Positions 440 through 34,786 of a stretch of 44,197 nucleotides of DNA are shown here, one piece after another (within the stretch, counting starts at the first letter, position 1; every line of letters starts with the position of its first letter). A program made the translations under genes and the position numbers. Source of the stretch: Lachnospiraceae bacterium NK4A179. Its GTDB lineage: Bacteria > Bacillota > Clostridia > Lachnospirales > Lachnospiraceae. The notes under the pieces are model-generated. The model had not been told where the DNA came from. It saw only the letters and a list, made by a program, of their open reading frames with translations, and searched no databases. The DNA is taken from NCBI GenBank assembly GCA_000421045.1, contig ATWC01000028.1, positions 1 to 44,197 of the forward strand, in the 5' to 3' direction.

Positions 440-919
440 CTAACCCCGTCCCCAAAGGTTCACAAATGCACATATGTGGGCGATACTCTGAACAGTGAAA
501 AATATCAGAAATGCAATGGTCCCCGGAAGCAGGAAGTATGTCCCATATCTTATTGTCAGTTCTACGGCCTTATCGGGAGCTGTCTGCAACATATATTTAT
601 AGAAAAACACAACCGCCAGGCAAGGAACATGAACTCCGCAGCCCCCAAAGGCTATATACCCGATGATTCCCGCGCGATACATATGCGCGTATTTCTCCGA
701 ATAAGGCGCGATAAGTCTGTAAATGGCAAAATAACACAACCCTTCCAGTGGGATCCCGATAAAACCCAAAAATGCTGACCATAATATCCTTGAATCCGGA
801 AGCGTATCATAGGCCGACAATTTACGCGCAACACCGCTAAGCGCCGGATCACTGACTCCCCACCCAAGGAGCATATCCCCGATCAGAACCATGATCCCTG
901 CGACCAGCCCTATCCTCAT
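440..919 (-). CDS. truncated multi-pass membrane protein (DUF6796-like), probably decaying
   Basis: A 159-residue hydrophobic protein with about five membrane segments. The early GDMLLGWG, the GIPLEG loop and the helix order match the intact relatives at 4949-5626 and 7665-8273, which are 200-225 residues long. It therefore lacks the last 60 or so residues, where the relatives carry a TGKT...(P/R)RxA segment. Its 5' end is also odd. A good ribosome site (TAGGAG) precedes an ATG at 981 that gives only MKTFNDIGIDKE and a stop at 943, while in-frame coding sequence (RIDWDRISHL) continues upstream of the ATG at 919. That pattern suggests a frameshift near 945-955. It is the last gene of the accessory run. 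The family name is from memory; the relationship to the two in-window paralogues is what I see. Confidence 0.6.
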   Translation of the reverse strand: MRIGLVAGIMVLIGDMLLGWGVSDPALSGVARKLSAYDTLPDSRILWSAFLGFIGIPLEGLCYFAIYRLIAPYSEKYAHMYRAGIIGYIAFGGCGVHVPCLAVVFFYKYMLQTAPDKAVELTIRYGTYFLLPGTIAFLIFFTVQSIAHICAFVNLWGRG

Positions 920-985
920 CAGATGGCTGATCCTGTCCCAGTCTATTCTTTATCAATTCCGATATCGTTAAATGTTTTCATTCTC

Positions 986-1107
986 CTACCATTTAAATAC
1001 CGCAAGCCTGTTGTTGATGTTCTTGCCTACGATTGCGAACAGTTTTCCTCGTATTGAGTATTTCTTCATCTCTTCGTTGTAGCTTCTTTCGGAGACAAAG
1101 CTGAGTT
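986..1107 (-). pseudogene. C-terminal remnant of an LCMT-like methyltransferase
   Basis: The minus strand encodes about 38 residues from FVSERSYNEEM to NINNRLAVFKW and a stop. They are identical, or nearly so, to the last residues of the intact methyltransferase at 6154-6933, and the DNA matches closely too. Everything upstream of this tail is missing: at about 1107 the similarity stops and the sequence runs straight into the end of the membrane-protein gene at 1137. There is no in-frame start. This is a deletion remnant of a duplicated methyltransferase, and it sits directly before a DUF6796-like gene. Confidence 0.85.
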
Positions 1108-1136
1108 GATCATTTTTTCTTTCTACCGCCTTGTCC

Positions 1137-1628
1137 TTATAGAATCATATACATAATCCCCGAAAGGATAGCGGAAATGATCGCCATCCCAACTGTCCCC
1201 GCAAACCACTTTTTCTTTTTATCATTTGATGTGATATACGGTTTCAGATCCTCCGTGCCCGGAATATTCCATGCCTCCGTATGACCTACCCAATATCCGT
1301 CTACAAGGATCCTGTCGATCACATTCATGATGGACAAAATAGCAAACATCTGCCAGAATCCATTGAAGAACCCTCTTGCTCCGTTTATTGCATACACGCA
1401 GACAAGGACATAAATGAAATACCCCGGGATGCATACGCATTTAAACAGAATGCTCCTTTTTCTTATCTCTTCTGCAGTGGTGAGGCCATTTTTTATCACG
1501 CGGCTTTGAACCTCGCTGCTATACAGATGAACCATTCCCACAGCACCGTTTCTTATGCCGATAGCGCATATCAGATACAGCAGAAATCCTAATCCAAGAC
1601 CTTCTATAATAACCTTTATAACAATCAT
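1137..1628 (-). CDS. four-TM membrane protein with an IDRILVD motif
   Basis: A 163-residue protein with hydrophobic segments at about residues 4-25, 63-83, 90-110 and 143-162. A D-x5-D pattern (IDRILVDGYW) lies in or after the third segment. The same pattern occurs at the same place in the neighbours at 2517-3014 (YDMIFFDYF) and 5633-6139 (FDAIVLDWWMF), so the three are probably divergent paralogues. Its ATG overlaps the TGA of the FAH-fold gene (ATGA), implying translational coupling. The function is unknown. The paired aspartates suggest a polar or metal site in the membrane, but that is inference. Confidence 0.75.
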   Translation of the reverse strand: MIVIKVIIEGLGLGFLLYLICAIGIRNGAVGMVHLYSSEVQSRVIKNGLTTAEEIRKRSILFKCVCIPGYFIYVLVCVYAINGARGFFNGFWQMFAILSIMNVIDRILVDGYWVGHTEAWNIPGTEDLKPYITSNDKKKKWFAGTVGMAIISAILSGIMYMIL

Positions 1629-2497
1629 TTCTCCCCCACTCTGTTTACAAGTTTTCCGATTCCCCGGATCTCACAACGGATCACATCGTCCTTTTTCAGG
1701 TAAACCGGTGGTTTCATCCCCATGGCAACGCCCCCCGGAGTTCCTGTCGCAATGATCGTTCCGGCCTTAAGTGTCATCCCCTGTGACAATTCGGAAACCG
1801 CTTCTTCTATAGTAGTGATCATACAAGCCGTGTTACTCTCCTGTCGTAGCTCATCGTTCACAAAGCACCTTATATCGAGATTATGCGCATCGTCTATCTC
1901 ATCAGCCGTAACGATGCAAGGTCCCATCGGAGTGTATCCGTCAAGGCTCTTTCCTCTGTACCATTGCTGATGCATAAACTGCAGATTCCTGGCGCTGACA
2001 TCATTTATGATCGTGTATCCGAGAATATGATCAGCAACCTCTTCCACCGATATATCCAGCGCATCCTTTTTCAGGATCACGCCCAGCTCCACCTCATAAT
2101 CCAGGCTGTCCACAAAATCATATGCCGGAATGATTCCCTCCGGATCATTCACCCTATTAACACGCTTTGAAAAATAGACAGTATCTGTTTTCTTGGTAAA
2201 ATCCAGCACATCTACGGTTTCTTCAATATGCTCTCTGTAATTCACACCCAGACAGATAATATCCTGTGCCGGTACAGGAACCGGTGCGATGATCTTGTAA
2301 CCGGACTCCTCTGCACCATCACCGTTATATTCATCGTAAGCTTTTATTATGGAATCCCTTAATCCGTCGTACCTGCGGATAAGATCATTCATATCGAGCA
2401 CGCTGATACCAAGTGTCTCAAGAGATATGATCCCGCCATCTGCAATCTGTACTGCAACACATTCTTCGGAACCTCTTTTTAACGTATATAGTCTCAT
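1625..2497 (-). CDS. fumarylacetoacetate hydrolase (FAH) family protein
   Basis: A 290-residue protein. The N-terminal cap (about 1-70) is followed by the FAH-fold domain, starting near PAQDIICLGVNYREHIEE. The acidic metal ligands are recognisable in the LDYEVELGVILKK segment, and the domain continues through VSARNLQ, GPCIVT and the late TGTPGGVAMG loop. Family members are Mg-dependent hydrolases, isomerases or decarboxylases of beta-dicarbonyl compounds such as 2-hydroxyhepta-2,4-diene-dioate. The substrate here cannot be deduced. It has a clear GGAGGGAAA ribosome site and sits inside the accessory run, where it is the only recognisable carbon-carbon-chemistry enzyme. The family call is confident; the specific function is not. 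Confidence 0.9.
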   Translation of the reverse strand: MRLYTLKRGSEECVAVQIADGGIISLETLGISVLDMNDLIRRYDGLRDSIIKAYDEYNGDGAEESGYKIIAPVPVPAQDIICLGVNYREHIEETVDVLDFTKKTDTVYFSKRVNRVNDPEGIIPAYDFVDSLDYEVELGVILKKDALDISVEEVADHILGYTIINDVSARNLQFMHQQWYRGKSLDGYTPMGPCIVTADEIDDAHNLDIRCFVNDELRQESNTACMITTIEEAVSELSQGMTLKAGTIIATGTPGGVAMGMKPPVYLKKDDVIRCEIRGIGKLVNRVGEK

Positions 2498-2516
2498 TTT
2501 CCCTCCACTCTATGCC

Positions 2517-3014
2517 CTAAAACAACGTGCACACCCAGGCTGCGATAGCTGATGCCGCCGGGAATATGACGATCAGCTTCAGCAGCTGGCTTTTGATGTT
2601 ATAGCCGTATTTTCTGTTTGTATATACCGGAGTGACTTCAGGAATGAATGTCTGAAAAAAGAAGTATTTACAAAGAAGAAAATAATCGAAGAAAATCATG
2701 TCATAGATCTTATATATCGTAAAGATCAGAACAAATCTCAAAAAGAACTGCCAGAATGTAAAACCGCTCCTGAAACCATCCCATATCGAGGTTACACCAA
2801 CTCCAAGTATCATGAGCATACTTATTACCATTAAAGTCCAGCCAATCTTCCGGGCTCCGTAGAATTCCTCCTGCTTTCTGTCTATCACAAGTTCCAATGC
2901 CTCCTTTGGAGCGGAAGAAAACAGTTTCTTATCCTTGATAAACACAACTGCCGAAATAAGCATAAGCGTTATCGCTGCGCAGAATATGATCGCAAGAAAC
3001 AATGTTAAAAGCAT
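2517..3014 (-). CDS. four-TM membrane protein with a YDMIFFD motif
   Basis: A 165-residue hydrophobic protein. It has an N-terminal membrane helix (about 2-26), a basic/acidic loop (KEALELVIDRKQEE), further helices at about 57-76 and 85-105, the YDMIFFDYFLL motif near residue 105-115, and a C-terminal helix (about 146-165). It resembles the proteins at 1137-1628 and 5633-6139 in length, helix spacing and the D-x5-D motif. It lies between the FAH gene and the glycosyltransferase in the same run, with a GAGGA ribosome site. I know no functional annotation for it. Confidence 0.75.
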   Translation of the reverse strand: MLLTLFLAIIFCAAITLMLISAVVFIKDKKLFSSAPKEALELVIDRKQEEFYGARKIGWTLMVISMLMILGVGVTSIWDGFRSGFTFWQFFLRFVLIFTIYKIYDMIFFDYFLLCKYFFFQTFIPEVTPVYTNRKYGYNIKSQLLKLIVIFPAASAIAAWVCTLF

Positions 3015-3046
3015 TTTTTATCCTCCTCAAGGAATTCTTGAATTTC

Positions 3047-4285
3047 TTATTCGGAAACATATTTTTCTATAGAGTCTGCCGCCGTAACTACACCATTTTC
3101 TTCCCTGATCATCCGTGAAATATCCCGTGCTTTCGCATCATATCTTCCGCTTACCAGATCCTCCAGGGCTCCGGCTATTTCATCAGTACTGCATAGTTTC
3201 TTACGTATATACAACGGTTCAGGTCCGCATCCTATGCGATTATCCATTCTGCCGTAAAAGTACTGGTCAAGCGCAAGCGCAATGACAAGCGTGGGCAATC
3301 CTGCCCTCAGCCCCATTCCGTTTGTCGTGTTCCCGCCATGATGCACCACTGCCCTCACTTTTTCAAATATATACGGATACGGTACGGCATCTATGAAGAA
3401 CAGCTTATCCGTGTTTACCCTTTCTTTTTCCGTTATCTGGAACGCCTGAACTATAGCCCTTATCCCTGTTCTTTTTAATGCATCGAGTGTCAGCAGCTGC
3501 AATCTGGCAAGTTCCGGAGATTCCGCTTTTCCGAAAGCTACAAATACCGGTTTTTTTCCCGATCCCAGAAAATCTGTAAGTTCCTTCGGTTCTTCATAAT
3601 CACCTGCCGCTTCTTCGGGATGGTACCAGTATCCCGTCACATGTATAGGGTCACCCCATGCGGGATCCGGAGGCATTAAGACCTTACTTGTCGGATAAAA
3701 CGTAAGTACTTTTCTGCCGTTCATCTCCGTATATCTGCTGCTGATCCTCCATCTTGGAAGTCCGACCGAGCATCTCCATCCGTTAAGGGCTATCATCGTC
3801 ATAAGGCTCATACCCTGAGGAAGTCCGTCATAACTCTTAAGCACTTTATCCGAATCGTACTCATCAGAATAAAGTGAATACTGTCTTGTAGGATCCATGG
3901 GACTGTAGAAGATCCGTGCACAGGGTATGTTCAGATACTCTGCAGCGTGTCTGGCAAATGCCGCACAGGTTCCATACATAACAAGGTCAGAACCTTTTAT
4001 TGCGTTAAGTGTCTGTTCCATAAATCCCGGATTCTCCTTTTTAAGCCGGAACATTCCCTTTGCAAAATCAAGGCTCGTCTTATAGTCAGTGACCAGATAT
4101 TTCATTACATGATCCGCATCGGTATCAAGCTTTATGAATGTAACACCCTTGCTTTCTATGAGGGTTCGGAAAGCTTCGGATGTAAGTATCCTGAACCCAT
4201 GTCCCCTTCTTATCATTTCTTCGCCGAGCTCAGCAAGCGGGTTTACATCACCCCTGGTTCCGACCGCAACCGCTGTGATAATCAT
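3047..4285 (-). CDS. GT1-type glycosyltransferase (UGT / sterol-glucosyltransferase-like)
   Basis: A 412-residue protein. The N-terminal Rossmann half starts with ITAVAVGTRGDVNPLAELG, the nucleotide-sugar glycosyltransferase pattern with an N-terminal acceptor domain. The donor half carries VHHGGNTTNGMGLRAGLP around residue 310-330, equivalent to the HHGGAGTT loop of GT1 sterol and macrolide glucosyltransferases. Such enzymes move a sugar from a nucleotide donor to a lipophilic acceptor. I chose the ATG at 4285, preceded by GGGGGAG and just after the previous stop at 4288; an upstream start would run into that gene. It lies directly after an ICMT-like membrane methyltransferase, which fits modification of a hydrophobic product. 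The acceptor is unknown. Confidence 0.88.
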   Translation of the reverse strand: MIITAVAVGTRGDVNPLAELGEEMIRRGHGFRILTSEAFRTLIESKGVTFIKLDTDADHVMKYLVTDYKTSLDFAKGMFRLKKENPGFMEQTLNAIKGSDLVMYGTCAAFARHAAEYLNIPCARIFYSPMDPTRQYSLYSDEYDSDKVLKSYDGLPQGMSLMTMIALNGWRCSVGLPRWRISSRYTEMNGRKVLTFYPTSKVLMPPDPAWGDPIHVTGYWYHPEEAAGDYEEPKELTDFLGSGKKPVFVAFGKAESPELARLQLLTLDALKRTGIRAIVQAFQITEKERVNTDKLFFIDAVPYPYIFEKVRAVVHHGGNTTNGMGLRAGLPTLVIALALDQYFYGRMDNRIGCGPEPLYIRKKLCSTDEIAGALEDLVSGRYDAKARDISRMIREENGVVTAADSIEKYVSE

Positions 4286-4287
4286 GC

Positions 4288-4806
4288 TTACACGCTCCCC
4301 CTGTCTTTTCTCGGAAACCACGGGATGCATCTGTTGACTTGCTTTTTATAGTCATCATATTCTTTTCCATACAGATCATGCAGCCATTTTTCCTCCGTAC
4401 ATATCAATGCCACAGTCATGATCATCCAGTCGATGACCGGAAGTATCAGCATCCACGCATTATGCCACATAAACGTTATACCCGATAACAATATCCACCA
4501 GCCGCTGTACATCGGATTTCTTACCCATGCGTATATGCCTTTGGTCTGCAGCTTATTCTCTGTTATGGATTCATCCATATCAGAGCGCAGCGCTCCGATA
4601 AACCAAACAACGCCGCCCAGAACAATAAACATTATCCCAACAATACGGAAGACATATATCCATGGTTTATCCAGTATCCCGAGCTTGAAAACATATCCAA
4701 ATAGAATGATCCCTATTACATTTACCATCGCAATTCCGTAAACAATATATGGTCCTACTCCGAACAGCGGAAGCTTCTGCCCTTCCTTCATATAATTTTT
4801 CAACAT
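4288..4806 (-). CDS. isoprenylcysteine carboxyl methyltransferase-like membrane methyltransferase
   Basis: A 172-residue protein. Three to four membrane helices are followed by the signature GIYAWVRNPMYSGWW (about residues 90-105) and the C-terminal EEKWLHDLYGKEYDDYKKQVNRCIPW. Together these define the ICMT/phospholipid-methyltransferase fold that binds SAM at the membrane face. Bacterial members methylate lipids or other hydrophobic acceptors, and the true substrate is usually unknown. The start at 4806 follows AGAGAGGTAG at proper spacing. The longer frame from 4869 has no ribosome site and would add an unusually charged tail. The gene is abutted by the glycosyltransferase, 2 nt away. Confidence 0.85.
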   Translation of the reverse strand: MLKNYMKEGQKLPLFGVGPYIVYGIAMVNVIGIILFGYVFKLGILDKPWIYVFRIVGIMFIVLGGVVWFIGALRSDMDESITENKLQTKGIYAWVRNPMYSGWWILLSGITFMWHNAWMLILPVIDWMIMTVALICTEEKWLHDLYGKEYDDYKKQVNRCIPWFPRKDRGSV

Positions 4807-4850
4807 TTGTCTACCTCTCTGCTTTTTGTCCTCATTGATCTTTTTTTCTT

Positions 4851-4952
4851 TTAGGGTATCCTGAAGCAAAAATCACAACACTCATCACCTCTGCCGTTCT
4901 TTTCAACTATCATCCTATATGCATGCTCCCACCCGCATGTTTTTTGTATCAT
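4851..4952 (-). pseudogene. 33-codon remnant resembling the C-terminus of an ATC-hydrolase-like protein
   Basis: A short frame whose ATG overlaps the TGA of the DUF6796-like gene (ATGA) and ends in GRGDECCDFCFRIP. The C-terminal 'CD' motif preceded by a short Gly/Glu loop matches the ends of the two full-length paralogues in this window (AEGAGICDYW at 6950-7588 and SGGPYCDCGY at 9638-10273). I read it as the tail of a third copy whose body was deleted. It could instead be a genuine small translation-coupled protein. Confidence 0.45.
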
Positions 4953-5626
4953 TGTAAATTTTCGCATTCTATACCGACTCCCAAAAGAATCAGGATAAAC
5001 CATATGATCATGCTCTCGCTCATAAGGCCGTTCATAAATCCGAGTCTGAACGCGCTTTCCGGCATAAATGATGCTATCGTCTTTAAGATGGCAAATATGA
5101 CCAGCACATTTGTGAATGCCATGGCTCTTCTGAACCTTGTCTTCCCGGTAACCTGAAGGTAAAACCAATACAGAAATACAGGGAGCATCAATGCCTCACT
5201 TACAGGTACAAGCCACGAGAAATTGGCGAACAGTGCTTCGCATATCGTGACAGCATCCCGTGAAAAGCCATTATTGTTAAGCCATGCAAACAGGCTCAAG
5301 ATTACAACATAGATCAGATGAAGTGCGATCCACGGTGTAAGCCCGAAGGCGTTCAGGTAATGATATACTTTTTTATGCTTTTCATCCCTGATATATTCCT
5401 GTACTGCAAAAAGGGCTATGCCATAGAAAATGATCCCCGGAAAGGCGAGTGCCATTGCAAGCACGTATCTCCATTGAGGAATTTGTGCCGTTCCTATGCT
5501 CAACCACACGAGCTTACCCGTATGTGCCGGATCACCGTACATCATCAGCCAATCCCCACCGCCATAGCACAGGCATCCGAGAACGCCGCATATGAGTGCC
5601 CATATATTCTTTGTCTTGTTATTCAT
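4949..5626 (-). CDS. DUF6796-like multi-pass membrane protein
   Basis: A 225-residue protein with six to seven predicted membrane segments. An early GGDWLMMYGD is followed by an AFPGIIFYGIAL loop, an acidic/basic cytoplasmic turn (EYIRDEKHKK), a central helix with LHLIYVV and a late TGKTRFRRAMAFTNVL segment. It is homologous to the proteins at 440-919 and 7665-8273 and is the longest and best-preserved of the three. The DUF6796 name is recalled, not checked. It follows the four-TM gene at 5633 by 6 nt and lies in the methyltransferase / four-TM / DUF6796 block, whose order is echoed at 440-1107. Confidence 0.78.
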   Translation of the reverse strand: MNNKTKNIWALICGVLGCLCYGGGDWLMMYGDPAHTGKLVWLSIGTAQIPQWRYVLAMALAFPGIIFYGIALFAVQEYIRDEKHKKVYHYLNAFGLTPWIALHLIYVVILSLFAWLNNNGFSRDAVTICEALFANFSWLVPVSEALMLPVFLYWFYLQVTGKTRFRRAMAFTNVLVIFAILKTIASFMPESAFRLGFMNGLMSESMIIWFILILLGVGIECENLQ

Positions 5627-5632
5627 CAGTTT

Positions 5633-6139
5633 TTATCCTACTTTCAGAAAAATCCATGCCAATAATGCTGATACAAATACTTCAATCACGAGCTTATGTA
5701 TCTCTTTCCCGTCCCACTGGGGATCAACGCGCCACACTTCAGGAGTCTTTCCCGTCTTTTTCTTTATCCAGATACCGAACAGATCAGTCCTGGTAAACAT
5801 CCACCAATCCAGGACGATGGCATCGAAAATGGATATCATCCAAAAGAATATTAAAAACCGCAAGGCAAGATGCCAGAAATCCATACCGGCAGCCACGCCC
5901 TGTTTGCCTGCAAATATGATCATCACTATATATCCGATCCCTACCAGAGTCATCAGAACTCCCAGAATGATCTTATCCCTCCGGCTAAATTTTCTGCTGA
6001 TCCCGTATTCTTCTAATATCGCGATTGCTTTCGGTGTCATGAACCAATATGCATTCTGCGGCACCAGAAAAGCTCCGATCAGACAAAACGCAGTAAGAAG
6101 CACTATTCCTATAAGACCAAATAAAACACTTAACAGCAT
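5633..6139 (-). CDS. four-TM membrane protein with an FDAIVLDWW motif
   Basis: A 168-residue protein with helices at about 3-25, 57-76, 86-110 and 148-166. The third carries FDAIVLDWWMF, the D-x5-D motif shared with the products at 1137-1628 and 2517-3014. Between the last two helices is a soluble, tryptophan-rich stretch (TGKTPEVWRVDPQWDGKEI). It is placed between the methyltransferase and the DUF6796-like gene, and its ribosome site GAGGT overlaps the region just after the methyltransferase stop. The function is unknown. Confidence 0.77.
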   Translation of the reverse strand: MLLSVLFGLIGIVLLTAFCLIGAFLVPQNAYWFMTPKAIAILEEYGISRKFSRRDKIILGVLMTLVGIGYIVMIIFAGKQGVAAGMDFWHLALRFLIFFWMISIFDAIVLDWWMFTRTDLFGIWIKKKTGKTPEVWRVDPQWDGKEIHKLVIEVFVSALLAWIFLKVG

Positions 6140-6153
6140 TTACAATACCTCGA

Positions 6154-6933
6154 CTACCACTTAAACACAGCGAGTCTGTTGTTGATGTTTTTACCTACGA
6201 TCGCAAACAGCTTCCCGCGTATTGAGTATTTCTTCATCTCCTCGTTGTAGCTCCTTTCGGATACAAAGCCAAGGCGCGGTTCCAATGGAAGATATTCCTT
6301 GCCCGATTTCGTTCCCCATCCGAAGGTGGCGTTTGTATTCTTTACCGCATCATGGTGAGCACCATGCTTTTCAAGAAAAGGAGAATGCAATTCCGCAAGC
6401 AGATATCCGTGGGGAAAACTGTCGCAAAGCATGTTCAGGCAGGTCTTAACCTGCTCCCTTGAAAAATATTCAAGCACACCTTCCATGACAACGATCGTCA
6501 TGTCGTTTTTCGGAAGGTTCTTTGTCCACTCCCCTTCAAGAGCGCTTCCGTCAAGCATAGTGCAGCGCTCCCTGTCCTCATAAACCTTGCGCCTGACGGC
6601 AATCTGGTCGGGCAGATCCACATCAAACCACGTGATCTTCCCGTTATCAACCTGTGAAAACTTGTCATCGAATCCACAGCCCAGATTGATGCACAAGGCT
6701 TCCGGGTACTTACCGATAAGCCTTTTTAATTCATCGCGATACATGATAGTTCGTGCTACAACGCCCTCATGTGATAAAAATGGGTCAAATTTGCTCACAT
6801 CCACCCCGAGAGTGTCTATGATCTCTTTCGCCTTCTGGTCTTTGATCCTGGCATTTGGTCTTGCCGTCTCACTCGCCTTGATCGCAAGCGGGATAAGAGC
6901 TGTTTCCTGAATGTCTCCGAATTTTAAATCCAT
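6154..6933 (-). CDS. class I SAM methyltransferase, leucine-carboxyl-methyltransferase (PPM1/Tcmp) type
   Basis: A 259-residue protein. The N-terminal ETALIPLAIKASETARPNARIKDQ is the usual PPM1/LCMT entry helix. The SAM-binding loop reads CINLGCGFDDKF (about residues 80-92), followed by WFDVDLPDQIAVRRK with the acidic ribose contact, and a later VVMEGVLEYFSREQV. These enzymes methylate a carboxylate or hydroxyl; polyketide O-methyltransferases belong here. A clear AGGAAGGGAG ribosome site supports the ATG at 6933. The C-terminal 38 residues are duplicated at 986-1107, showing that a second copy once existed in the same run. Confidence 0.9.
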   Translation of the reverse strand: MDLKFGDIQETALIPLAIKASETARPNARIKDQKAKEIIDTLGVDVSKFDPFLSHEGVVARTIMYRDELKRLIGKYPEALCINLGCGFDDKFSQVDNGKITWFDVDLPDQIAVRRKVYEDRERCTMLDGSALEGEWTKNLPKNDMTIVVMEGVLEYFSREQVKTCLNMLCDSFPHGYLLAELHSPFLEKHGAHHDAVKNTNATFGWGTKSGKEYLPLEPRLGFVSERSYNEEMKKYSIRGKLFAIVGKNINNRLAVFKW

Positions 6934-6949: not shown

Positions 6950-7588
6950 TTACTGCGGATCCGCTATCTTATCACCTACCGTCCAGTAATCGCAGATACC
7001 CGCTCCTTCAGCTACCGTGTGTTCCCTGATCAGCCGTGAATGCATCATGGACATCGTTATGAAATCAATGTTGCACAGCACAGGATTGATCTCTTCATAC
7101 CCGTACTCTTTACAAAAGTCCGCTATCGGGCATCTCGTAAAGTGATAATAGAACCCGTCCTTATGCAGATTTTCGTCAAAATTGAAGTCCCAGTTGTTCG
7201 TATCCTCCGGATGACTTGCCGCCCAATCAGCGTTCTTGTGCATCATCTTCCCAAAACTTCTGATTCCCTTATCGGTGTTCATGTCTATCATGCCGCAAAA
7301 CACTTTCATAGGCTTCCAGTTAAGCGCGATCTTCATAACTTCACTCATCTGATCAGGTGTGATCTTTCGTTCTGAAGCGAGCCATATGGAAATGATCACA
7401 AAGGACATCGTAATGTTACTCGCCATCGGATTATTGTCCCTGATACCTTTCATCCTTGACAGAAGATCCTTATAGATCGGCTTTGCTTTTGCAAGCAGAT
7501 TCCCTATATCCTCTCTCGGCCAGCATGTAGGCAGTCCCTTCTTTAGCCGGCTCGTCATAAAAAGCCATATCGCAGGTTTATATTTCAT
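6950..7588 (-). CDS. L-2-amino-thiazoline-4-carboxylic acid hydrolase-like protein (copy 2)
   Basis: A 212-residue soluble protein. Its helical N-terminal half is followed by a Cys-rich C-terminal half: YYHFTRCPIADFCKEYGYEEINPVLCNIDF, ending in AEGAGICDYWTVGD. This matches the ATC-hydrolase family layout, with an internal FxxCP...EY motif and a near-terminal CD motif. The founding Pseudomonas enzyme opens 2-amino-thiazoline-4-carboxylate to S-carbamoyl-cysteine, but most Clostridia homologues have no proven substrate. It is homologous to the protein at 9638-10273. It has an AAGGAGATC ribosome site and about 76 nt separate it from the previous gene, the largest gap inside the run. Confidence 0.82.
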   Translation of the reverse strand: MKYKPAIWLFMTSRLKKGLPTCWPREDIGNLLAKAKPIYKDLLSRMKGIRDNNPMASNITMSFVIISIWLASERKITPDQMSEVMKIALNWKPMKVFCGMIDMNTDKGIRSFGKMMHKNADWAASHPEDTNNWDFNFDENLHKDGFYYHFTRCPIADFCKEYGYEEINPVLCNIDFITMSMMHSRLIREHTVAEGAGICDYWTVGDKIADPQ

Positions 7589-7664: not shown

Positions 7665-8273
7665 CTATAATAAAAAAAGCAATCCCAAAAACATAAATGC
7701 ATTAGCAATATTTCCTTTTGCGGGCACCTTAGTCGGAGCCAATATCAGAAATGCCGGAAGTGTATTGAAAACACACGCCCATCTCGGTAAGGCAGTCTTT
7801 CCTGTTAATACAAGGATAAAAAGCAAAACAACAAATACCAGTAGTCCCACATAAGCTACAGCTGCTATGATCGTGCTCTTAAAAAAATCAGTAACAGCTT
7901 TCAGTGCCTCTTCCGTTCTTCCCAGTTTTACATAGAACCACTCCACCGCTCCGCATAAGACATGGTGTGCCGAGATCAAAACCATAAAGAACATGGCTGC
8001 AATAAGCATAATACGCCCGATCACAGGTGATGTCTCTGACATCCACCTGCTAATCTCAATATACCCGAAACTTGCCATAAACAATGCAAACACTCCAATG
8101 AACATTGCCAGAACCACCTGCTTCAACGACATCGACGAAAAGGTCTTCTGCATCTTTGCATTGTCTTTTATATCCGAAAAATCAAATCTTCCATCTTTGG
8201 TATAGCCCAGCATACAATCCGTGATGCCGCAGATCAGATGCCCTATACCGGCTATGATAAGTACTATCTTCAT
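7665..8273 (-). CDS. DUF6796-like multi-pass membrane protein
   Basis: About 202 residues with six to seven hydrophobic segments. GHLICGITDCMLGY at the N-terminus and TGKTALPRWACVFNTLPAFL near the C-terminus align with GGDWLMMYGD and TGKTRFRRAMAFTNVL of the 4949-5626 product. The start at 8273 follows GGGAG. The frame can be extended to a TTG at 8300, but that would run back to the stop of the preceding gene without a ribosome site. No catalytic motif is obvious. It lies immediately after the 133-residue membrane protein. Confidence 0.72.
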   Translation of the reverse strand: MKIVLIIAGIGHLICGITDCMLGYTKDGRFDFSDIKDNAKMQKTFSSMSLKQVVLAMFIGVFALFMASFGYIEISRWMSETSPVIGRIMLIAAMFFMVLISAHHVLCGAVEWFYVKLGRTEEALKAVTDFFKSTIIAAVAYVGLLVFVVLLFILVLTGKTALPRWACVFNTLPAFLILAPTKVPAKGNIANAFMFLGLLFLL

Positions 8274-8300
8274 CTCACTGACTCCCATCTGACAAAGCAA

Positions 8301-8705: not shown

Positions 8706-9638
8706 TCAATTCTCCTCAATCCATTCTTTTATTGCTTTTGAAAATCTCCTGTCGATATCCTTTCTTGTTTCCTCACACTCATCAGGATGCTCCTTGGCAG
8801 ACTTAAACATAAAGCGTAATACGAATTTAAGTCCTACAGGTAAGGCGATCCGCAATAAACCCTCGGGCAACACAAAGTGTGTGCCATATTTATAAGCCAC
8901 AGCTTCATACTCGCAATTATGCGGTCTGTTTTTCAGCCGTTCATCCATACGTCTCACATATTTGCCTGCTTCCCATAAACCATCATCATCGGCTCCGACA
9001 AGAATCAGTTTTCCGTGAATATTTTCGATCTTTATCATTTCCTCTTCGGTATGAGGTCTGGCTTTTTCAGAATCTATAAACAGATTTGTAGATCGGATAA
9101 AATCACCTGATCCTTTTGTTTCCTCCTGTATTTTTTGCCAATACTCAGGATGCTGATATACAAAAGGCATATATGGAAGAGGTTCTCCTTTCCACGATAA
9201 TGTGGAGGCATTCGGAACCGGCCACTCTTTACATCCATCCTTTTTCCCTTGTTCGAATCCCTGCCATACAAAATCACTTGCAGTTATTCCGAAGGTCAGA
9301 GTTATATCAGGAAAGTACGAGGCCGCTGCCAATGAATGCATCCCGGCTGTTGACATACCCATGATACCGATCTTTTTATTTCCATGTTCTTTTAACCATT
9401 TTATAGCTGTTTCTATCCTCTCAAGCGGACAGTTTACATGGCTGTAATCCTTCTTGCCGGGAGACATGGCCATACAATTCACCCCATGCTTGTGAAGCCA
9501 TTTTGCTCCGCATTTTGCCATATAATCATTGGGATCATCGCCAAATAATCCTATCATGGCATACTCAGATTTTTTCTGATTTTCATACCATGTTCCGTAA
9601 AATCCATCTGTTTCTACGTTAAACTGTAATCGTTTCAT
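8706..9638 (-). CDS. alpha/beta hydrolase, acyl-CoA thioesterase/BAAT-like
   Basis: A 310-residue protein with a complete catalytic set: nucleophile Ser about residue 96 in GIMGMSTAGM, an acid in VGADDDGLW (about 217-219) and His about 254 in YKYGTHFVLP. The IGLFGDDPNDYMAK region replaces the usual HG oxyanion strand. The late acid-His arrangement resembles the C-terminal domain of acyl-CoA thioester hydrolase/BAAT proteins and dienelactone hydrolases. The ATG at 9638 overlaps the upstream TGA (ATGA), a better start than the in-frame GTG at 9641. It probably cleaves an ester or thioester; the substrate is unknown. Confidence 0.82.
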   Translation of the reverse strand: MKRLQFNVETDGFYGTWYENQKKSEYAMIGLFGDDPNDYMAKCGAKWLHKHGVNCMAMSPGKKDYSHVNCPLERIETAIKWLKEHGNKKIGIMGMSTAGMHSLAAASYFPDITLTFGITASDFVWQGFEQGKKDGCKEWPVPNASTLSWKGEPLPYMPFVYQHPEYWQKIQEETKGSGDFIRSTNLFIDSEKARPHTEEEMIKIENIHGKLILVGADDDGLWEAGKYVRRMDERLKNRPHNCEYEAVAYKYGTHFVLPEGLLRIALPVGLKFVLRFMFKSAKEHPDECEETRKDIDRRFSKAIKEWIEEN

Positions 9639-10273
9639 CACGCATTCCTCTTTTTATACCCGCAATCACAATACGGTCCGCCTGATGCAAGTGTGTACTC
9701 CCTGACGAAGTTCGTGGCACCTCCCAGTTCGCTCATCGTATAGTCCAGATGACACATGGCCGGAACGAGATCAAAGTATCCGTATTCTTTCATAAGCACG
9801 CATATCCCGCACTTATAGAACCTTGCCTCATATCCGCTGTCGTCGTCATACGGGATATAATCCATGTTCCAGGAATACGGATTCCTATCTGCGGCCTTTA
9901 ATGCCGCAGTCGCTTTCATCCCCTCTATATCTTTTTCCGTGAACTTGATCTTTCCGCCTTTTTTACAAAATATCTTTGTTGCAGTCATAGTCATGGCAGC
10001 TTCATAGAATTCCGTGAGTTCTTCTACCGTAGGCCTTCTGTCCATGCACTCAAGAAATGCAACAAGCAAAGCGCAGTTGACTATATTTGCCTTGAATCTG
10101 TCTGCTTTCTCAAACTCCGGCAGTTTCTCAATGATCTCTCTGTACTTTGGTTTAGCCTGTTTTGTTATCCTGTTTGCAGCATCATCAGTAAATCCGAGAT
10201 CTGAAACCAGATGATTCCGAAAAGACTTTTTATAGAGCATCCACATTGCGGATGGCATACCTGCATATTTCAT
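9638..10273 (-). CDS. L-2-amino-thiazoline-4-carboxylic acid hydrolase-like protein (copy 1)
   Basis: A 211-residue soluble protein of the same family as 6950-7588. The C-terminal half contains ARFYKCGICVLMKEYGYFDLVPAMCHLDYTMSELGG and ends in SGGPYCDCGYKKRNA, with the conserved FxxC..., EYGY and CD positions. The N-terminal half is helical. The ATG at 10273 overlaps the TGA of the upstream hydrolase (ATGA) and has GGAGAAGAG before it; the GTG at 10276 is less likely. Being sandwiched by two translationally coupled alpha/beta hydrolases suggests the three act on one pathway. The substrate is unknown and the family name should not be read as activity. Confidence 0.82.
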   Translation of the reverse strand: MKYAGMPSAMWMLYKKSFRNHLVSDLGFTDDAANRITKQAKPKYREIIEKLPEFEKADRFKANIVNCALLVAFLECMDRRPTVEELTEFYEAAMTMTATKIFCKKGGKIKFTEKDIEGMKATAALKAADRNPYSWNMDYIPYDDDSGYEARFYKCGICVLMKEYGYFDLVPAMCHLDYTMSELGGATNFVREYTLASGGPYCDCGYKKRNA

Positions 10274-11019
10274 CACTCTTCTCCTTCCAGAAAACCGAGC
10301 AAACGCTTCGCATAGGTTCCCGTATGTTCATTCAGCATCTGCCCGTGTCCCATGCCCTTGAATACGCGAACTCTCATCTGCGGCAGATATTTCCTTAAAA
10401 GCCTTGCGCTCTTTACGGGATACGGCTCGTTTTCTCCTCTCCAGTAAACAACCGGATTCTTATAGTTCCTGATTCCATCCTTGATATCGTATTTGTAGCA
10501 TGAAAGAGCCGCATTTCCGATTGACTTAAGAGAAACACCTTTGTAAAGAGTATCCACGATACCGCTGTTTCCCTTTCCCATGATGCTCTCCACAACTGCA
10601 TCCGGAATATGCACATTATGCTCGATCAGCCATATGGTAATCTGGAACAGATACTTGAACGGATAGGTCATGATCCCCATTCGAATCACGAACGCTGCAT
10701 CCAGCACCGTCAGTTCCACTTCGATATTTCCCCTGCTGATCAGTTCCGTAGCAATCGTGCCGCCAAGGGAGAATCCAAGCAAGCCGTACAGCTTGCCGTC
10801 ATGATTGTCCTTCACATATTTCTCAATCTTCTCTGCCGCATCCCTTACCGATACAAAAGTTCCCTGTTCTTTTGCTGAATGACCGTCAAGTTCGCAGACG
10901 ATCACATAATAATCCTTCAGATACGGAAGAAGCGGATCAAAAAGATCGGATGTATTGGCCATCCCATGTATCAGCAGGATGGATTTGTTCGATTCATTGC
11001 CATGTGTTAAAAATCTCAT
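10273..11019 (-). CDS. alpha/beta hydrolase
   Basis: A 248-residue protein. SILLIHGMANTSDLF provides the HG oxyanion motif, GFSLGGTIA the nucleophile (Ser about 84) and GMGHGQML the catalytic His (about 225). The acid is probably one of the Glu residues in YWRGENEPYPV (about 193-202), where many relatives have Asp. I chose the ATG at 11019, preceded by GGAGC and only 1 nt after the stop of the 31-codon leader frame. It is the first large gene of the accessory run. Substrate unknown. Confidence 0.85.
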   Translation of the reverse strand: MRFLTHGNESNKSILLIHGMANTSDLFDPLLPYLKDYYVIVCELDGHSAKEQGTFVSVRDAAEKIEKYVKDNHDGKLYGLLGFSLGGTIATELISRGNIEVELTVLDAAFVIRMGIMTYPFKYLFQITIWLIEHNVHIPDAVVESIMGKGNSGIVDTLYKGVSLKSIGNAALSCYKYDIKDGIRNYKNPVVYWRGENEPYPVKSARLLRKYLPQMRVRVFKGMGHGQMLNEHTGTYAKRLLGFLEGEE

Positions 11020-11020
11020 T

Positions 11021-11116
11021 TCACAAGCTCCATCTTGAAATCGCACAGGTCATCGCCCTTTTCCCTTTCAGGGTCTTGATCGTTTTCTTCTTTAGCTCGC
11101 TATTCTCGGTCTGCAT
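11021..11116 (-). CDS. possible 31-residue leader protein
   Basis: A short basic frame (MQTENSELKKKTIKTLKGKR...) preceded by a very strong TAGGAGGAG ribosome site and ending 1 nt before the ATG of the first hydrolase. Its position as the first translated frame after the promoter, and its coupling to the next gene, make it worth annotating. The protein has no recognisable domain and could be the decayed start of a lost gene. Confidence 0.4.
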   Translation of the reverse strand: MQTENSELKKKTIKTLKGKRAMTCAISRWSL

Positions 11117-11229: not shown

Positions 11230-11245
11230 GTTAGCTATCGCTAAC
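11230..11245. promoter_or_regulatory. operator-like palindrome GTTAG-N6-CTAAC
   Basis: A perfect inverted repeat (GTTAGC / GCTAAC, 4-nt centre) starting 6 nt downstream of the -10 box of the accessory operon, so it covers the transcription start. The same half-sites with the same 6-nt inner spacing occur at the flavodoxin promoter (33793-33810). Placement implies repression. The regulator gene is not in the window. Confidence 0.7.
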
Positions 11246-11251
11246 TAAATC

Positions 11252-11280
11252 ACAATAACACTTGTATGTATAAAAGTCTA
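11252..11280 (-). promoter_or_regulatory. promoter of the accessory operon
   Basis: Minus strand: TAGACT (11275-11280), 17-bp spacer, TATTGT (11252-11257). Each hexamer matches consensus at 4 of 6 positions. Tandem terminators just upstream isolate it from tRNA-Glu. The 11117-11422 stretch holds this promoter, its operator and those terminators; no gene is seen there. Confidence 0.55.
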
Positions 11281-31917: not shown

Positions 31918-33249
<1,332 letters not shown>

Positions 33250-33265
33250 TCATCGATGCAGTTAA

Positions 33266-33688
33266 TTATGCCAGCGCAGCACCGAGACTCTTACATTCTT
33301 CAAGGGAATCCTCACCGGGAGCACTGTTGACTATAACGCTATCACAAACAAGGCTGGCACCTGCAGCATTGCATCGATCTTCCCAGTCTCTCATCCACTG
33401 ACCGTCTCCCCAGCCGTAAGAACCGAAAAGAGCAATCTTTTTGCCTGAAAGAGCTCCCTCAACTGCAGCGAACATAGGCTCAAACGAAGACTCTTCAAGT
33501 ACCTCCGAGCCCATTGCGGGACAGCCGAAGGCTATACCATCAAATCCCGCTACCTTATCAGGTGAAAACTCATCAGGGCCGAATACACTTACCTCAGCTC
33601 CTTTGTCCTTGGCCCCTGCTTCTACCGCACTTGCCATTGCAGCTGTATTGCCTGTTCCGCTCCAAAAAACTACTGCCACTTTACTCAT
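33266..33688 (-). CDS. flavodoxin
   Basis: A 140-residue FMN electron carrier. The phosphate-binding loop reads FWSGTGNTAAMASAV (about residues 8-22), FGCPAMGSEVLEES gives the 60s loop and GSYGWGDGQWM the 90s loop with Tyr/Trp stacking residues. Short-chain (Clostridium/Megasphaera) type by length. It can replace ferredoxin when iron is scarce and could serve enzymes such as IspG. A strong promoter with an overlapping GTTAG-N6-CTAAC palindrome lies upstream, pointing to metal- or redox-responsive control. Confidence 0.95.
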   Translation of the reverse strand: MSKVAVVFWSGTGNTAAMASAVEAGAKDKGAEVSVFGPDEFSPDKVAGFDGIAFGCPAMGSEVLEESSFEPMFAAVEGALSGKKIALFGSYGWGDGQWMRDWEDRCNAAGASLVCDSVIVNSAPGEDSLEECKSLGAALA

Positions 33689-33733
33689 ATAACGATTCCT
33701 CCTAATTCTTCCCTTAATACTGAATACCTCCCC

Positions 33734-33766
33734 CTCCGATAAAGGCCATAGGCTCCTTTACCGGAG
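33734..33766 (-). other. 12-bp hairpin in the flavodoxin leader
   Basis: CTCCGGTAAAGG pairs with CCTTTATCGGAG (one G-U pair) around a 9-nt loop, about 46 nt before the start codon. There is no T run, so it is a leader structure, perhaps stabilising the mRNA. Confidence 0.6.
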
Positions 33767-33792
33767 AGAGAGGATTCGGATGATTTATTCGA

Positions 33793-33810
33793 GGTTAGGC
33801 ACGTCTAACC
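33793..33810. promoter_or_regulatory. operator-like palindrome at the flavodoxin promoter
   Basis: GGTTAG / CTAACC inverted repeat with a 6-nt centre, starting 6 nt after the -10 hexamer. It has the same half-sites, spacing and placement as the site at 11230-11245. Confidence 0.75.
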
Positions 33811-33816
33811 GTGGTT

Positions 33817-33845
33817 ATATTATCATAACCAAATATATCTGTCAA
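33817..33845 (-). promoter_or_regulatory. promoter of flavodoxin-eno
   Basis: Minus strand: perfect TTGACA (33840-33845), 17-bp spacer, TAATAT (33817-33822). The resulting leader is about 120 nt. Confidence 0.85.
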
Positions 33846-33874
33846 CATATTTTGTAAAAAAATTTTAATATCAC

Positions 33875-33912
33875 AAAAAATAAAGAGCAGAGGATAATGC
33901 TCCCTGCTCTTC
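33875..33912 (-). terminator. intrinsic terminator after ssrA
   Basis: Stem AAGAGCAG / CTGCTCTT with a run of six T on the minus strand, about 20 nt after the tmRNA 3' end. Confidence 0.8.
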
Positions 33913-33930
33913 TTTTCCGAGAATGATAAG

Positions 33931-34263
33931 TGGACCTGACGGGAGTTGAACCCGTGTCCGAAATATCCGCCCTCGCCCTTCTACTATCATAGTCTCTGGT
34001 CAGTCATTCCCTCTGCCGCAATGCCACAGACAACGTTACGGTTTCAGTAGCTTCATGGATCTGCAATACGCTCAAAGCTTTGCGCATCCGTTTCCTGCAA
34101 GTCGACGCCGTTTACTTAATGTGCAGGTGCACTAAGGACGACGCGCTGCCCTTAGGCAGCGTATGCTAAATTATCTTCAGCGTTTAGTTTAATTTTGGGT
34201 TTAACGCACTCCTGCGGATAGCTTCTTCGACTTAAGATACCCCGTCGAAACCTTTTCAGGCCC
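33931..34263 (-). ncRNA. ssrA: transfer-messenger RNA (tmRNA)
   Basis: A 333-nt RNA. The acceptor pairs GGGCCTG with CAGGTCC, followed by discriminator A; CCA is not encoded. The T-arm (GGGTTCAACTCCC) is at the 3' end and the 5' end reads GGCCTGAAAAGGTTTCGAC, as in other tmRNAs. The open tag frame ends ...KLNAEDNLAYAA before TAA, a normal hydrophobic AYAA-type degron; I cannot fix the resume codon. smpB, its protein partner, lies 55 nt upstream. A TACAAT -10 box is at 34276-34281. Confidence 0.96.
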
Positions 34264-34318
34264 ATATAAATATATATTGTATCATCTAAGATAAATATAC
34301 AAAAATAAAAAACTGTTT

Positions 34319-34786
34319 TCAACAGCGATTATTCATCTTCAGCGCTCTTTCAATATCGCGCTGTGCATCATGCTTTGCAATAGTCTCACGCTTATCGTAA
34401 TTCTTCTTACCTTTAGCAAGACCGATCTCAAGCTTTGCCCTGCCATTCTTGAAATATACCTGAAGAGGCATGATCGTCATGGTCTTTTCCGATGTGGCAC
34501 CGGCAAGCTTTCCGATCTCCGACTTGTGCATCAAAAGCTTTCGCACGCGGAGCGGATCTTTGTTGAAGATATTGCCCTGCTCGTAAGGGCTGATATTCAT
34601 TCCAACAACAAATATCTCACCGTTTTCTATCCTTACGTATGCTTCTTTTATGCTGCACTTGCCGGCACGCAGGCTCTTCACCTCTGTCCCGGCTAACGCT
34701 ATTCCGGCTTCATACTTCTCGAGGATGAAATAATCATGATATGCTTTTTTATTGTTAGCTATTAACTTTATTCCTTCGTGTTTCAT
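34319..34786 (-). CDS. smpB: SsrA-binding protein SmpB
   Basis: A 155-residue partner of tmRNA in ribosome rescue. Canonical blocks are NKKAYHDYFILEKYEAGIALAGTEVKSLR, EIFVVGMNISPYEQGN and PLRVRKLLMHKSEI. The C-terminal tail KGKKNYDKRETIAKHDAQRDIERA enters the mRNA channel. The ATG overlaps the TGA of rnr (ATGA), and tmRNA follows immediately: all three components of trans-translation quality control are adjacent. Confidence 0.98.
   Translation of the reverse strand: MKHEGIKLIANNKKAYHDYFILEKYEAGIALAGTEVKSLRAGKCSIKEAYVRIENGEIFVVGMNISPYEQGNIFNKDPLRVRKLLMHKSEIGKLAGATSEKTMTIMPLQVYFKNGRAKLEIGLAKGKKNYDKRETIAKHDAQRDIERALKMNNRC

Follow-up and report, generated by a model that had tools for sequence, protein, structure and literature searches.

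The window, by which we mean the whole 44,197-nucleotide stretch of DNA analysed (contig ATWC01000028.1 of Lachnospiraceae bacterium NK4A179), carries two copies of the palindrome GTTAG-N6-CTAAC on its minus strand. The copy at 11230..11245 (GTTAGCTATCGCTAAC) lies directly downstream of the -10 element of an 11-kb operon, and the copy at 33794..33809 (GTTAGGCACGTCTAAC; 18 bp, 33793-33810, with the outer G and C) precedes a flavodoxin and an enolase gene. Both had been pointed out in a first-pass annotation, and they are present as described, with no further exact match anywhere in the window; none of 100 dinucleotide shuffles contained any match. The same annotation noted that the two palindromes are followed by CTAACC-N-CG, which is correct at both when read on the gene strand, and that each is separated from its -10 hexamer by six nucleotides; this distance stands for the operon, whereas at the flavodoxin promoter it is seven nucleotides to GTTAG and six only if counted to the outer G. 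The flavodoxin-enolase promoter (TTGACA-N17-TAATAT, 33817..33845, minus strand) was called by a promoter scan. That of the operon departs further from the consensus and escaped the scan; we read it by eye as TAGACT-N17-TATTGT, aided by two other boxed promoters of the same genome (TAGACA-N17-TATTAT and TAGACA-N17-TATCAT), with a putative -35 at 11275-11280, a spacer of 17 and a putative extended -10 (TG-T-TATTGT, 11252..11257), read directly, both on the minus strand.

The first reading frame behind the operon box (11021..11116, minus strand) has 31 codons and matches ATC_hydrolase proteins of other loci (L113, L136), at the N terminus with one end and at the C terminus with the other. It has the appearance of an ATC_hydrolase first gene that lost its interior and kept both ends, and on this account a small peptide gene at the head of the operon was rejected. 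The first intact gene codes for an alpha/beta hydrolase (10273..11019), and behind it on the same strand are genes for an ATC_hydrolase-family protein (PF14196; 9638..10276), a BAAT_C alpha/beta hydrolase (8706..9641), a second ATC_hydrolase-family protein (6950..7588) and an LCM-family methyltransferase (6154..6933); the rest of the operon (440..6139) encodes membrane proteins, two of them DUF6796, a PEMT/ICMT-like methyltransferase, a GT28-like glycosyltransferase and an FAA hydrolase. A DUF6796 protein, the third of the operon, is at 7665-8300. These enzymes point to no clear product, and the metal-scavenging or metal-sparing product suggested earlier would be a conjecture. A structure model of the protein encoded at 6950-7588 (pLDDT 91) has its best PDB fold match in H-NOX (E 0.011, TM about 0.4), with weaker matches to Bet3 and PoxR/MopR-type folds; by sequence the family has no PDB match up to E 1, and of the three cysteines common to the three ATC_hydrolase paralogues of this genome, conservation is incomplete among 19 relatives. 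Any part played by metal or heme would be only a guess.

At the other locus, the flavodoxin gene (33266..33688) is followed after 37 bp by the enolase gene (31918..33228), both on the minus strand. The enolase is full length (436 aa, Enolase_N and Enolase_C; E 4.2e-210 to PDB 3uj2) and is the only one in the genome, such that the second box precedes the sole enolase gene by way of flavodoxin, a point absent from the first-pass annotation. The leader (33710..33794, minus strand) contains, directly behind the box, a long hairpin with CCUAUG at its tip and by eye resembles the enolase leaders of relatives, as if flavodoxin had been inserted between enolase and its promoter. All 14 flavodoxin and enolase leaders that we folded form a hairpin (z-scores -1.4 to -5.6; L236-L248, L283-L292), and 11 have CCUAUG at the tip. 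We do not regard it as a proven RNA element: an Rfam search of seven loci with a limit of E 0.1 came back empty, the leaders did not yield a common structure when aligned automatically, and covariation in six short-stem leaders did not exceed that of shuffles (70/500). In some relatives a DUF3793-type gene lies between the box and flavodoxin (L094:9233-9811, L101, L109).

The palindrome across genome, genus and order

The genome (3.22 Mb) contains nine exact GTTAG-N6-CTAAC sites, compared with a single match to a reversed control. A genome-wide scan had been proposed with the expectation of sites ahead of iron genes, and its outcome agrees: outside the window there are sites ahead of two feo loci, of transporter genes and of a run of genes paralogous to the window operon. 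A tandem pair on contig C5 precedes a putative 74-aa feoA-like reading frame and feoB; of the 17 bases that separate TTGACA from TATAAT, 16 belong to box 1, and box 2 comes after the -10, a layout that would offer the plainest picture of repression. Single sites precede feoA-feoB plus an ABC pair (C7), a gene for an MntP-ZIP fusion (C20), and on C24 a run of alpha/beta hydrolase, ATC_hydrolase and LCM methyltransferase genes that parallels the window operon. A further C24 site precedes an operon (L013:189-6460) with a NifH-like gene, two NifD/NifK-like genes and genes for a FecBCD-type importer, possibly an iron-regulated nitrogenase-like reductase tied to the uptake of iron or tetrapyrroles; the best-scoring models for the NifH-like protein are those of CfbC and NifH, at scores below their cut-offs. 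Another site on C5 (L010:15618) precedes a 133-aa sortase-like fragment, the promoter of which is nearly the same as that of the MntP-ZIP gene.

Among this genome and 34 others of the genus there are 178 sites and 41 control matches, with sites outnumbering controls in 32 of the 35 genomes and falling below them in two; the excess is weak in the order's other families (61 versus 42 over 24 genomes). The genomes are related and these counts are not independent. Among 230 distinct sites in the collected loci, many of which were picked for holding sites or LCM genes, 15 lie inside a mechanically called reading frame of at least 100 aa, and 209 are no more than 350 bp from the start of a gene. A -10-like hexamer occurs 0–14 nt before the box at 82 of 169 oriented sites, and at 40 of the 169 on the mirrored side. 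We scanned 101 of the 219 first genes found behind a box, namely those from this genome and its relatives, and they include FeoA (9), FeoB (5), DtxR (5), DUF3793 (6), Trep_Strep (4), ABC (11) and TetR_N (5) families; because box clusters, LCM and enolase guided the choice of loci, these numbers are no census. The box precedes iron uptake genes, as an operator of the DtxR/IdeR kind does.

The genes of the window operon have relatives in similar surroundings. Rumen Lachnospiraceae, Butyrivibrio and Ruminococcus encode close relatives of the LCM methyltransferase, for which we retained 80 of 365 loci, and among the 78 loci with at least 250 bp of upstream sequence, an exact box lies within 400 bp of the LCM orthologue in 38, and a box with no more than one mismatch in 51; the reversed control gives none by either measure. 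Relatives of the PEMT, mem165, DUF6796, ATC_hydrolase and BAAT genes share islands with feoB, DtxR, ABC pairs and Trep_Strep/CbiQ systems, and their recurrence there suggests that the gene kinds of the operon belong to the regulon in several arrangements, thereby placing a family of conserved nameless genes in it. We also note that the LCM methyltransferase is 80-93% identical across records titled Lachnospiraceae, Butyrivibrio, Ruminococcus and others (L113-L192), and it has possibly spread by transfer.

A candidate DtxR-family regulator

The genome encodes one DtxR-family protein, C14:30529, of 121 aa (PF01325 40.9 bits, cut-off 26; PF02742 56.8 bits, cut-off 27); a second PF01325 match, on C22, is a GntR/FCD protein and was discarded. 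Fur is ruled out as the reader of the box in this strain, since PF01475 has no match in the genome, in a search for which the control was positive in 13 of 14 genomes; a Fur-family protein is present in 18 of the 35 genus genomes. We found no other DtxR or Fur protein besides C14:30529. Aligned to MntR, it has D, E, H, C, E and H at the putative metal-ligand places. The nearest NCBIfam models are those of MntR, although below their cut-offs, and MntR is also the closest protein in PDB by sequence. At the places of IdeR Met10 and Cys102, described as iron-selective in the IdeR literature, the protein has Asp and Cys, and so shares only the second.

The arms of the palindrome had been likened to a metal box of the DtxR/MntR class, and both the geometry and the presence of a single DtxR-family regulator fit this comparison. 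One IdeR dimer can bind a half site, and the boxes of IdeR-repressed genes overlap the -10 or the transcription start (PMC8464063, PMC10317159). The box described here has the same TTAG-N6-CTAA geometry as the Saccharopolyspora erythraea IdeR half site, and like it lies near the -10 or start of iron genes (PMC8464063); it differs in having an outer G and C rather than the inner G and C of TTAGGNNNNCCTAA. The arm geometry of TTAGG-NNNN-CCTAA is present, but the inner G is found in only 7% and the inner C in 8% of the 169 oriented sites. Nor does it correspond to the 19-bp DtxR/IdeR box with its four CCTAA repeats (TTAGGTTAGSCTAACCTAA), having only the two arms. The likely regulator is also unlike IdeR in being short, its 121 aa leaving no space for an SH3 domain, and in residing in a low-GC Gram-positive host, a group in which Fur is the usual iron regulator (PMC10317159). 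It is in the same length class as the short DtxR-family protein MntR, to which it has its nearest sequence matches, but it differs from it in the Cys at the Cys102 place and in the targets, which are Fe uptake genes and flavodoxin. Flavodoxin is made under iron shortage and elsewhere is controlled by Fur; here the genome lacks Fur, and enolase adjoins flavodoxin in one unit. The iron-regulated ECF heme transporter Lha (PMC7299338) offers a parallel, as an ECF-type transporter in an iron regulon, to the Trep_Strep and CbiQ systems found here, which are assigned by Pfam only.

Comparison of DtxR genes provides a further clue. In this genome and its relatives, 15 of 68 DtxR genes have TTAG-N6-CTAA within 400 bp upstream, which makes it the most frequent of all 256 four-letter palindromic words with a spacer of six (15; next 9), and other spacers between TTAG and CTAA reach at most 4 as against 15 for a spacer of six. 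The genus has two main types of DtxR. One, which adjoins feoB where examined, has both iron-selective residues, Met and Cys, and carries up to three boxes; the other, to which C14:30529 belongs, has Asp and Cys. Neither the exact box nor TTAG-N6-CTAA is present before any of the 23 DtxR genes of the C14:30529 subclade, its own included, and autoregulation of this gene was set aside for want of an exact box. Six of the 23 have a site with one mismatch (G003, G018, G019, G027, G030, G031), compared with 0 of 71 for the reversed control at up to one mismatch, and in the wider clade of this type a box lies directly upstream in G035, G036 and G053, which belong to another genus and other families. 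Because exact boxes are lacking near the genes of its subclade, we infer, rather than read directly, that C14:30529 is the protein that recognizes the box, just as we infer iron as the signal and repression as the action.

We consider it quite likely that the palindrome is the operator of an iron-dependent DtxR-family repressor controlling the 11-kb operon, flavodoxin, enolase and feo. As far as sequence can speak to it, this interpretation is well supported by the sites before iron genes, the half-site geometry, the single DtxR protein without Fur, and the first rank of the word before DtxR genes. One dimer of the metal-loaded repressor would bind GTTAG-N6-CTAAC just after the -10, over or beside the transcription start, and would block RNA polymerase; iron shortage would release it, so that the 11-kb operon and flavodoxin would be expressed together with feo and other uptake systems, and enolase would be made via flavodoxin. 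Weighing against this are the lack of exact boxes in the subclade of C14:30529, its Asp at the Met10 place and its MntR-like nearest models, the rarity of the inner G and C, the Fur-family proteins of 18 genus genomes, the two genus genomes with fewer sites than controls, the weak excess in other families, and the site ahead of the sortase-like fragment.

A different metal is conceivable, with a manganese-type MntR reading the box and the regulon answering Mn instead of Fe. The proximity of C14:30529 to MntR both in NCBIfam (below cut-off) and in PDB, the Asp at the Met10 place, and the site before the MntP-ZIP fusion are all in keeping with this; but the targets are two feo loci, flavodoxin and a FecCD-type importer, the protein has Cys at the Cys102 place, the feoB-adjoining type of the genus has Met and Cys like IdeR, and no manganese importer family is among the 25 first-gene families listed of 72 found, and we regard manganese as an improbable signal. 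A repressor of another family, such as TetR, Rrf2 or AraC, could be entertained on the grounds that TetR genes often sit beside boxed ABC pairs and that TetR_N accounts for five of the 101 scanned first genes; the same box nevertheless stands before many unlike genes, fits DtxR in its geometry and ranks first among the words upstream of DtxR genes, which leaves such a reader with a slim chance indeed. That the palindromes arose by chance, or reflect a promoter architecture shared without any regulator, we find scarcely credible: ten specified bases are expected about once per genome, as the one reversed-control match illustrates, but this does not account for the absence of matches in 100 shuffles, the 178 sites against 41 controls, or the spacer of strictly six. 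Among the papers listed by our literature searches, we noticed none describing an iron regulon for these rumen bacteria, and the sites outline a predicted one for a large group of anaerobes, including its operator and the protein likely to govern it.

Enolase and its association with the box

In 36 genomes (this one, 34 of the genus and one of another genus) we find a full enolase gene in 22, a fragment in four, none in ten, and two enolases in not a single case; two partial matches in each of G007, G011, G018 and G022 represent one gene apiece, and the fragment in G001 sits at a contig end and may be cut by the assembly. The 22 genomes behind named loci, two of which (G003, G027) are also in the genus set, give a similar picture, with 18 full enolases, two fragments, two without, and never a doubled gene. 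In a tree of 44 enolases, the kind encoded in the window forms one clade of 23 rows, 85-100% identical to the window's enolase and with support of 100/97, in which Ruminococcus rows sit among those of Lachnospiraceae, suggesting transfer between families.

The window-type enolases, counted as the 23 rows of the clade and six genomes added by identity alone, number 29; 14 belong to the genus set, in whose selection enolase played no part, and 15 to LCM-locus genomes, nine of them picked because enolase lay near LCM. An exact box lies within 700 bp upstream in 20 of the 29, and three more have a box with a single mismatch, whereas the reversed control at up to one mismatch gives two. For the 14 genus genomes alone the corresponding numbers are eight exact and one with one mismatch. 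By comparison, the 22 other enolases (53-79% identical), one of them with only 40 bp of upstream sequence, all lack a box even if one mismatch is allowed; the difference between 20/29 and 0/22 gives a Fisher p of 1.7e-7, with kinship ignored. GTTAG is the most frequent of the 1024 five-letter words before window-type enolases, with 20 occurrences, and the next has two. In six of the 29 the 700 bp contain neither an exact box nor a one-mismatch version: that of G003 is, by coordinates, behind a boxed feoA-feoB, those of G021 and G032 are behind a DtxR gene, that of AC2005 follows an ABC gene and another coding for 773 aa, boxes lying farther upstream, and the remainder are those of G017 (413 bp upstream known) and G020. 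In G002 and G026 a remnant of 51-52 enolase residues lies between an exact box and a DtxR gene adjoining feoB, which looks like loss in place.

From these associations the box probably controls the cell's only enolase gene, and we propose that enolase belongs to the iron-starvation regulon. It may, however, simply hitch-hike, being transcribed from a promoter of its own or by read-through, with iron irrelevant to glycolysis; this would be compatible with our favored explanation of the box itself, and we take it as a serious possibility, though short of an even chance. It would accommodate the six boxless window-type enolases, although those of G003, G021 and G032 stand behind boxed feoA-feoB or DtxR, and the enolase activity measured in ordinary culture in three strains of the group, which may or may not carry the window type. 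It sits less well with the gap of 37 bp between flavodoxin and enolase, across which the promoter scan (32500-34500) called no minus-strand promoter from the flavodoxin start to enolase, with the presence of a box shortly before enolase in 19 genomes, in 16 of which it is by eye no more than 45 nt behind TTGAC, and with its occurrence at window-type enolases (20/29) and not at others (0/22).

Reports since 2010, among them four papers (PMC2914790, PMC6118326, PMC6912079, PMC7523725), describe enolase loss in Butyrivibrio and Pseudobutyrivibrio, with an advantage that is unclear, and propose the methylglyoxal shunt as the detour around the lost step. The bacterial group is the same as that examined here, with enolase present, broken or absent, but here the gene is tied to an iron-type box; the word iron is absent from the main text of all four, and a full-text literature search for Butyrivibrio, enolase and iron returned eight papers, none with any of these words in its title or abstract. 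One of the enolase papers cites older reports on B. fibrisolvens and R. albus, in extracts of which enolase and pyruvate kinase were not or hardly detectable; repression by iron would account for the enolase half of this, though the enolase activity present in three strains of the group speaks against it.

We tentatively suggest, while thinking it more apt to be wrong than right, that the sole enolase of these rumen Lachnospiraceae and Ruminococcus is an iron-starvation gene, shut off by iron-loaded DtxR, with replete cells using an iron-needing route and starved cells using flavodoxin and enolase. One candidate for the iron-needing, enolase-free route is the methylglyoxal shunt with iron-dependent lactate oxidation. 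Methylglyoxal synthase matches are found in 34 of the 36 genomes, including nine of the ten without enolase, by which the detour would be allowed but not specifically indicated. An iron-dependent serine bypass finds no support, as the L-serine dehydratase alpha domain (PF03313) is found in none of the 36 genomes, with the control positive in nine of 14. If the suggestion is true, enolase loss in Butyrivibrio would be the loss of an iron-starvation function and not of a housekeeping gene, and life without enolase, a puzzle since 2010, would become plainly testable; it would also put a central reaction of glycolysis under the control of iron, which to our knowledge is unusual. The association of enolase with the box in any event provides a testable lead as to why many of these bacteria have lost the gene. 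We note finally that six genomes of the genus (G004, G007, G011, G015, G018 and G022; L249-L254) encode a distantly related second type of enolase, 467-478 aa long, 53-54% identical and boxless.
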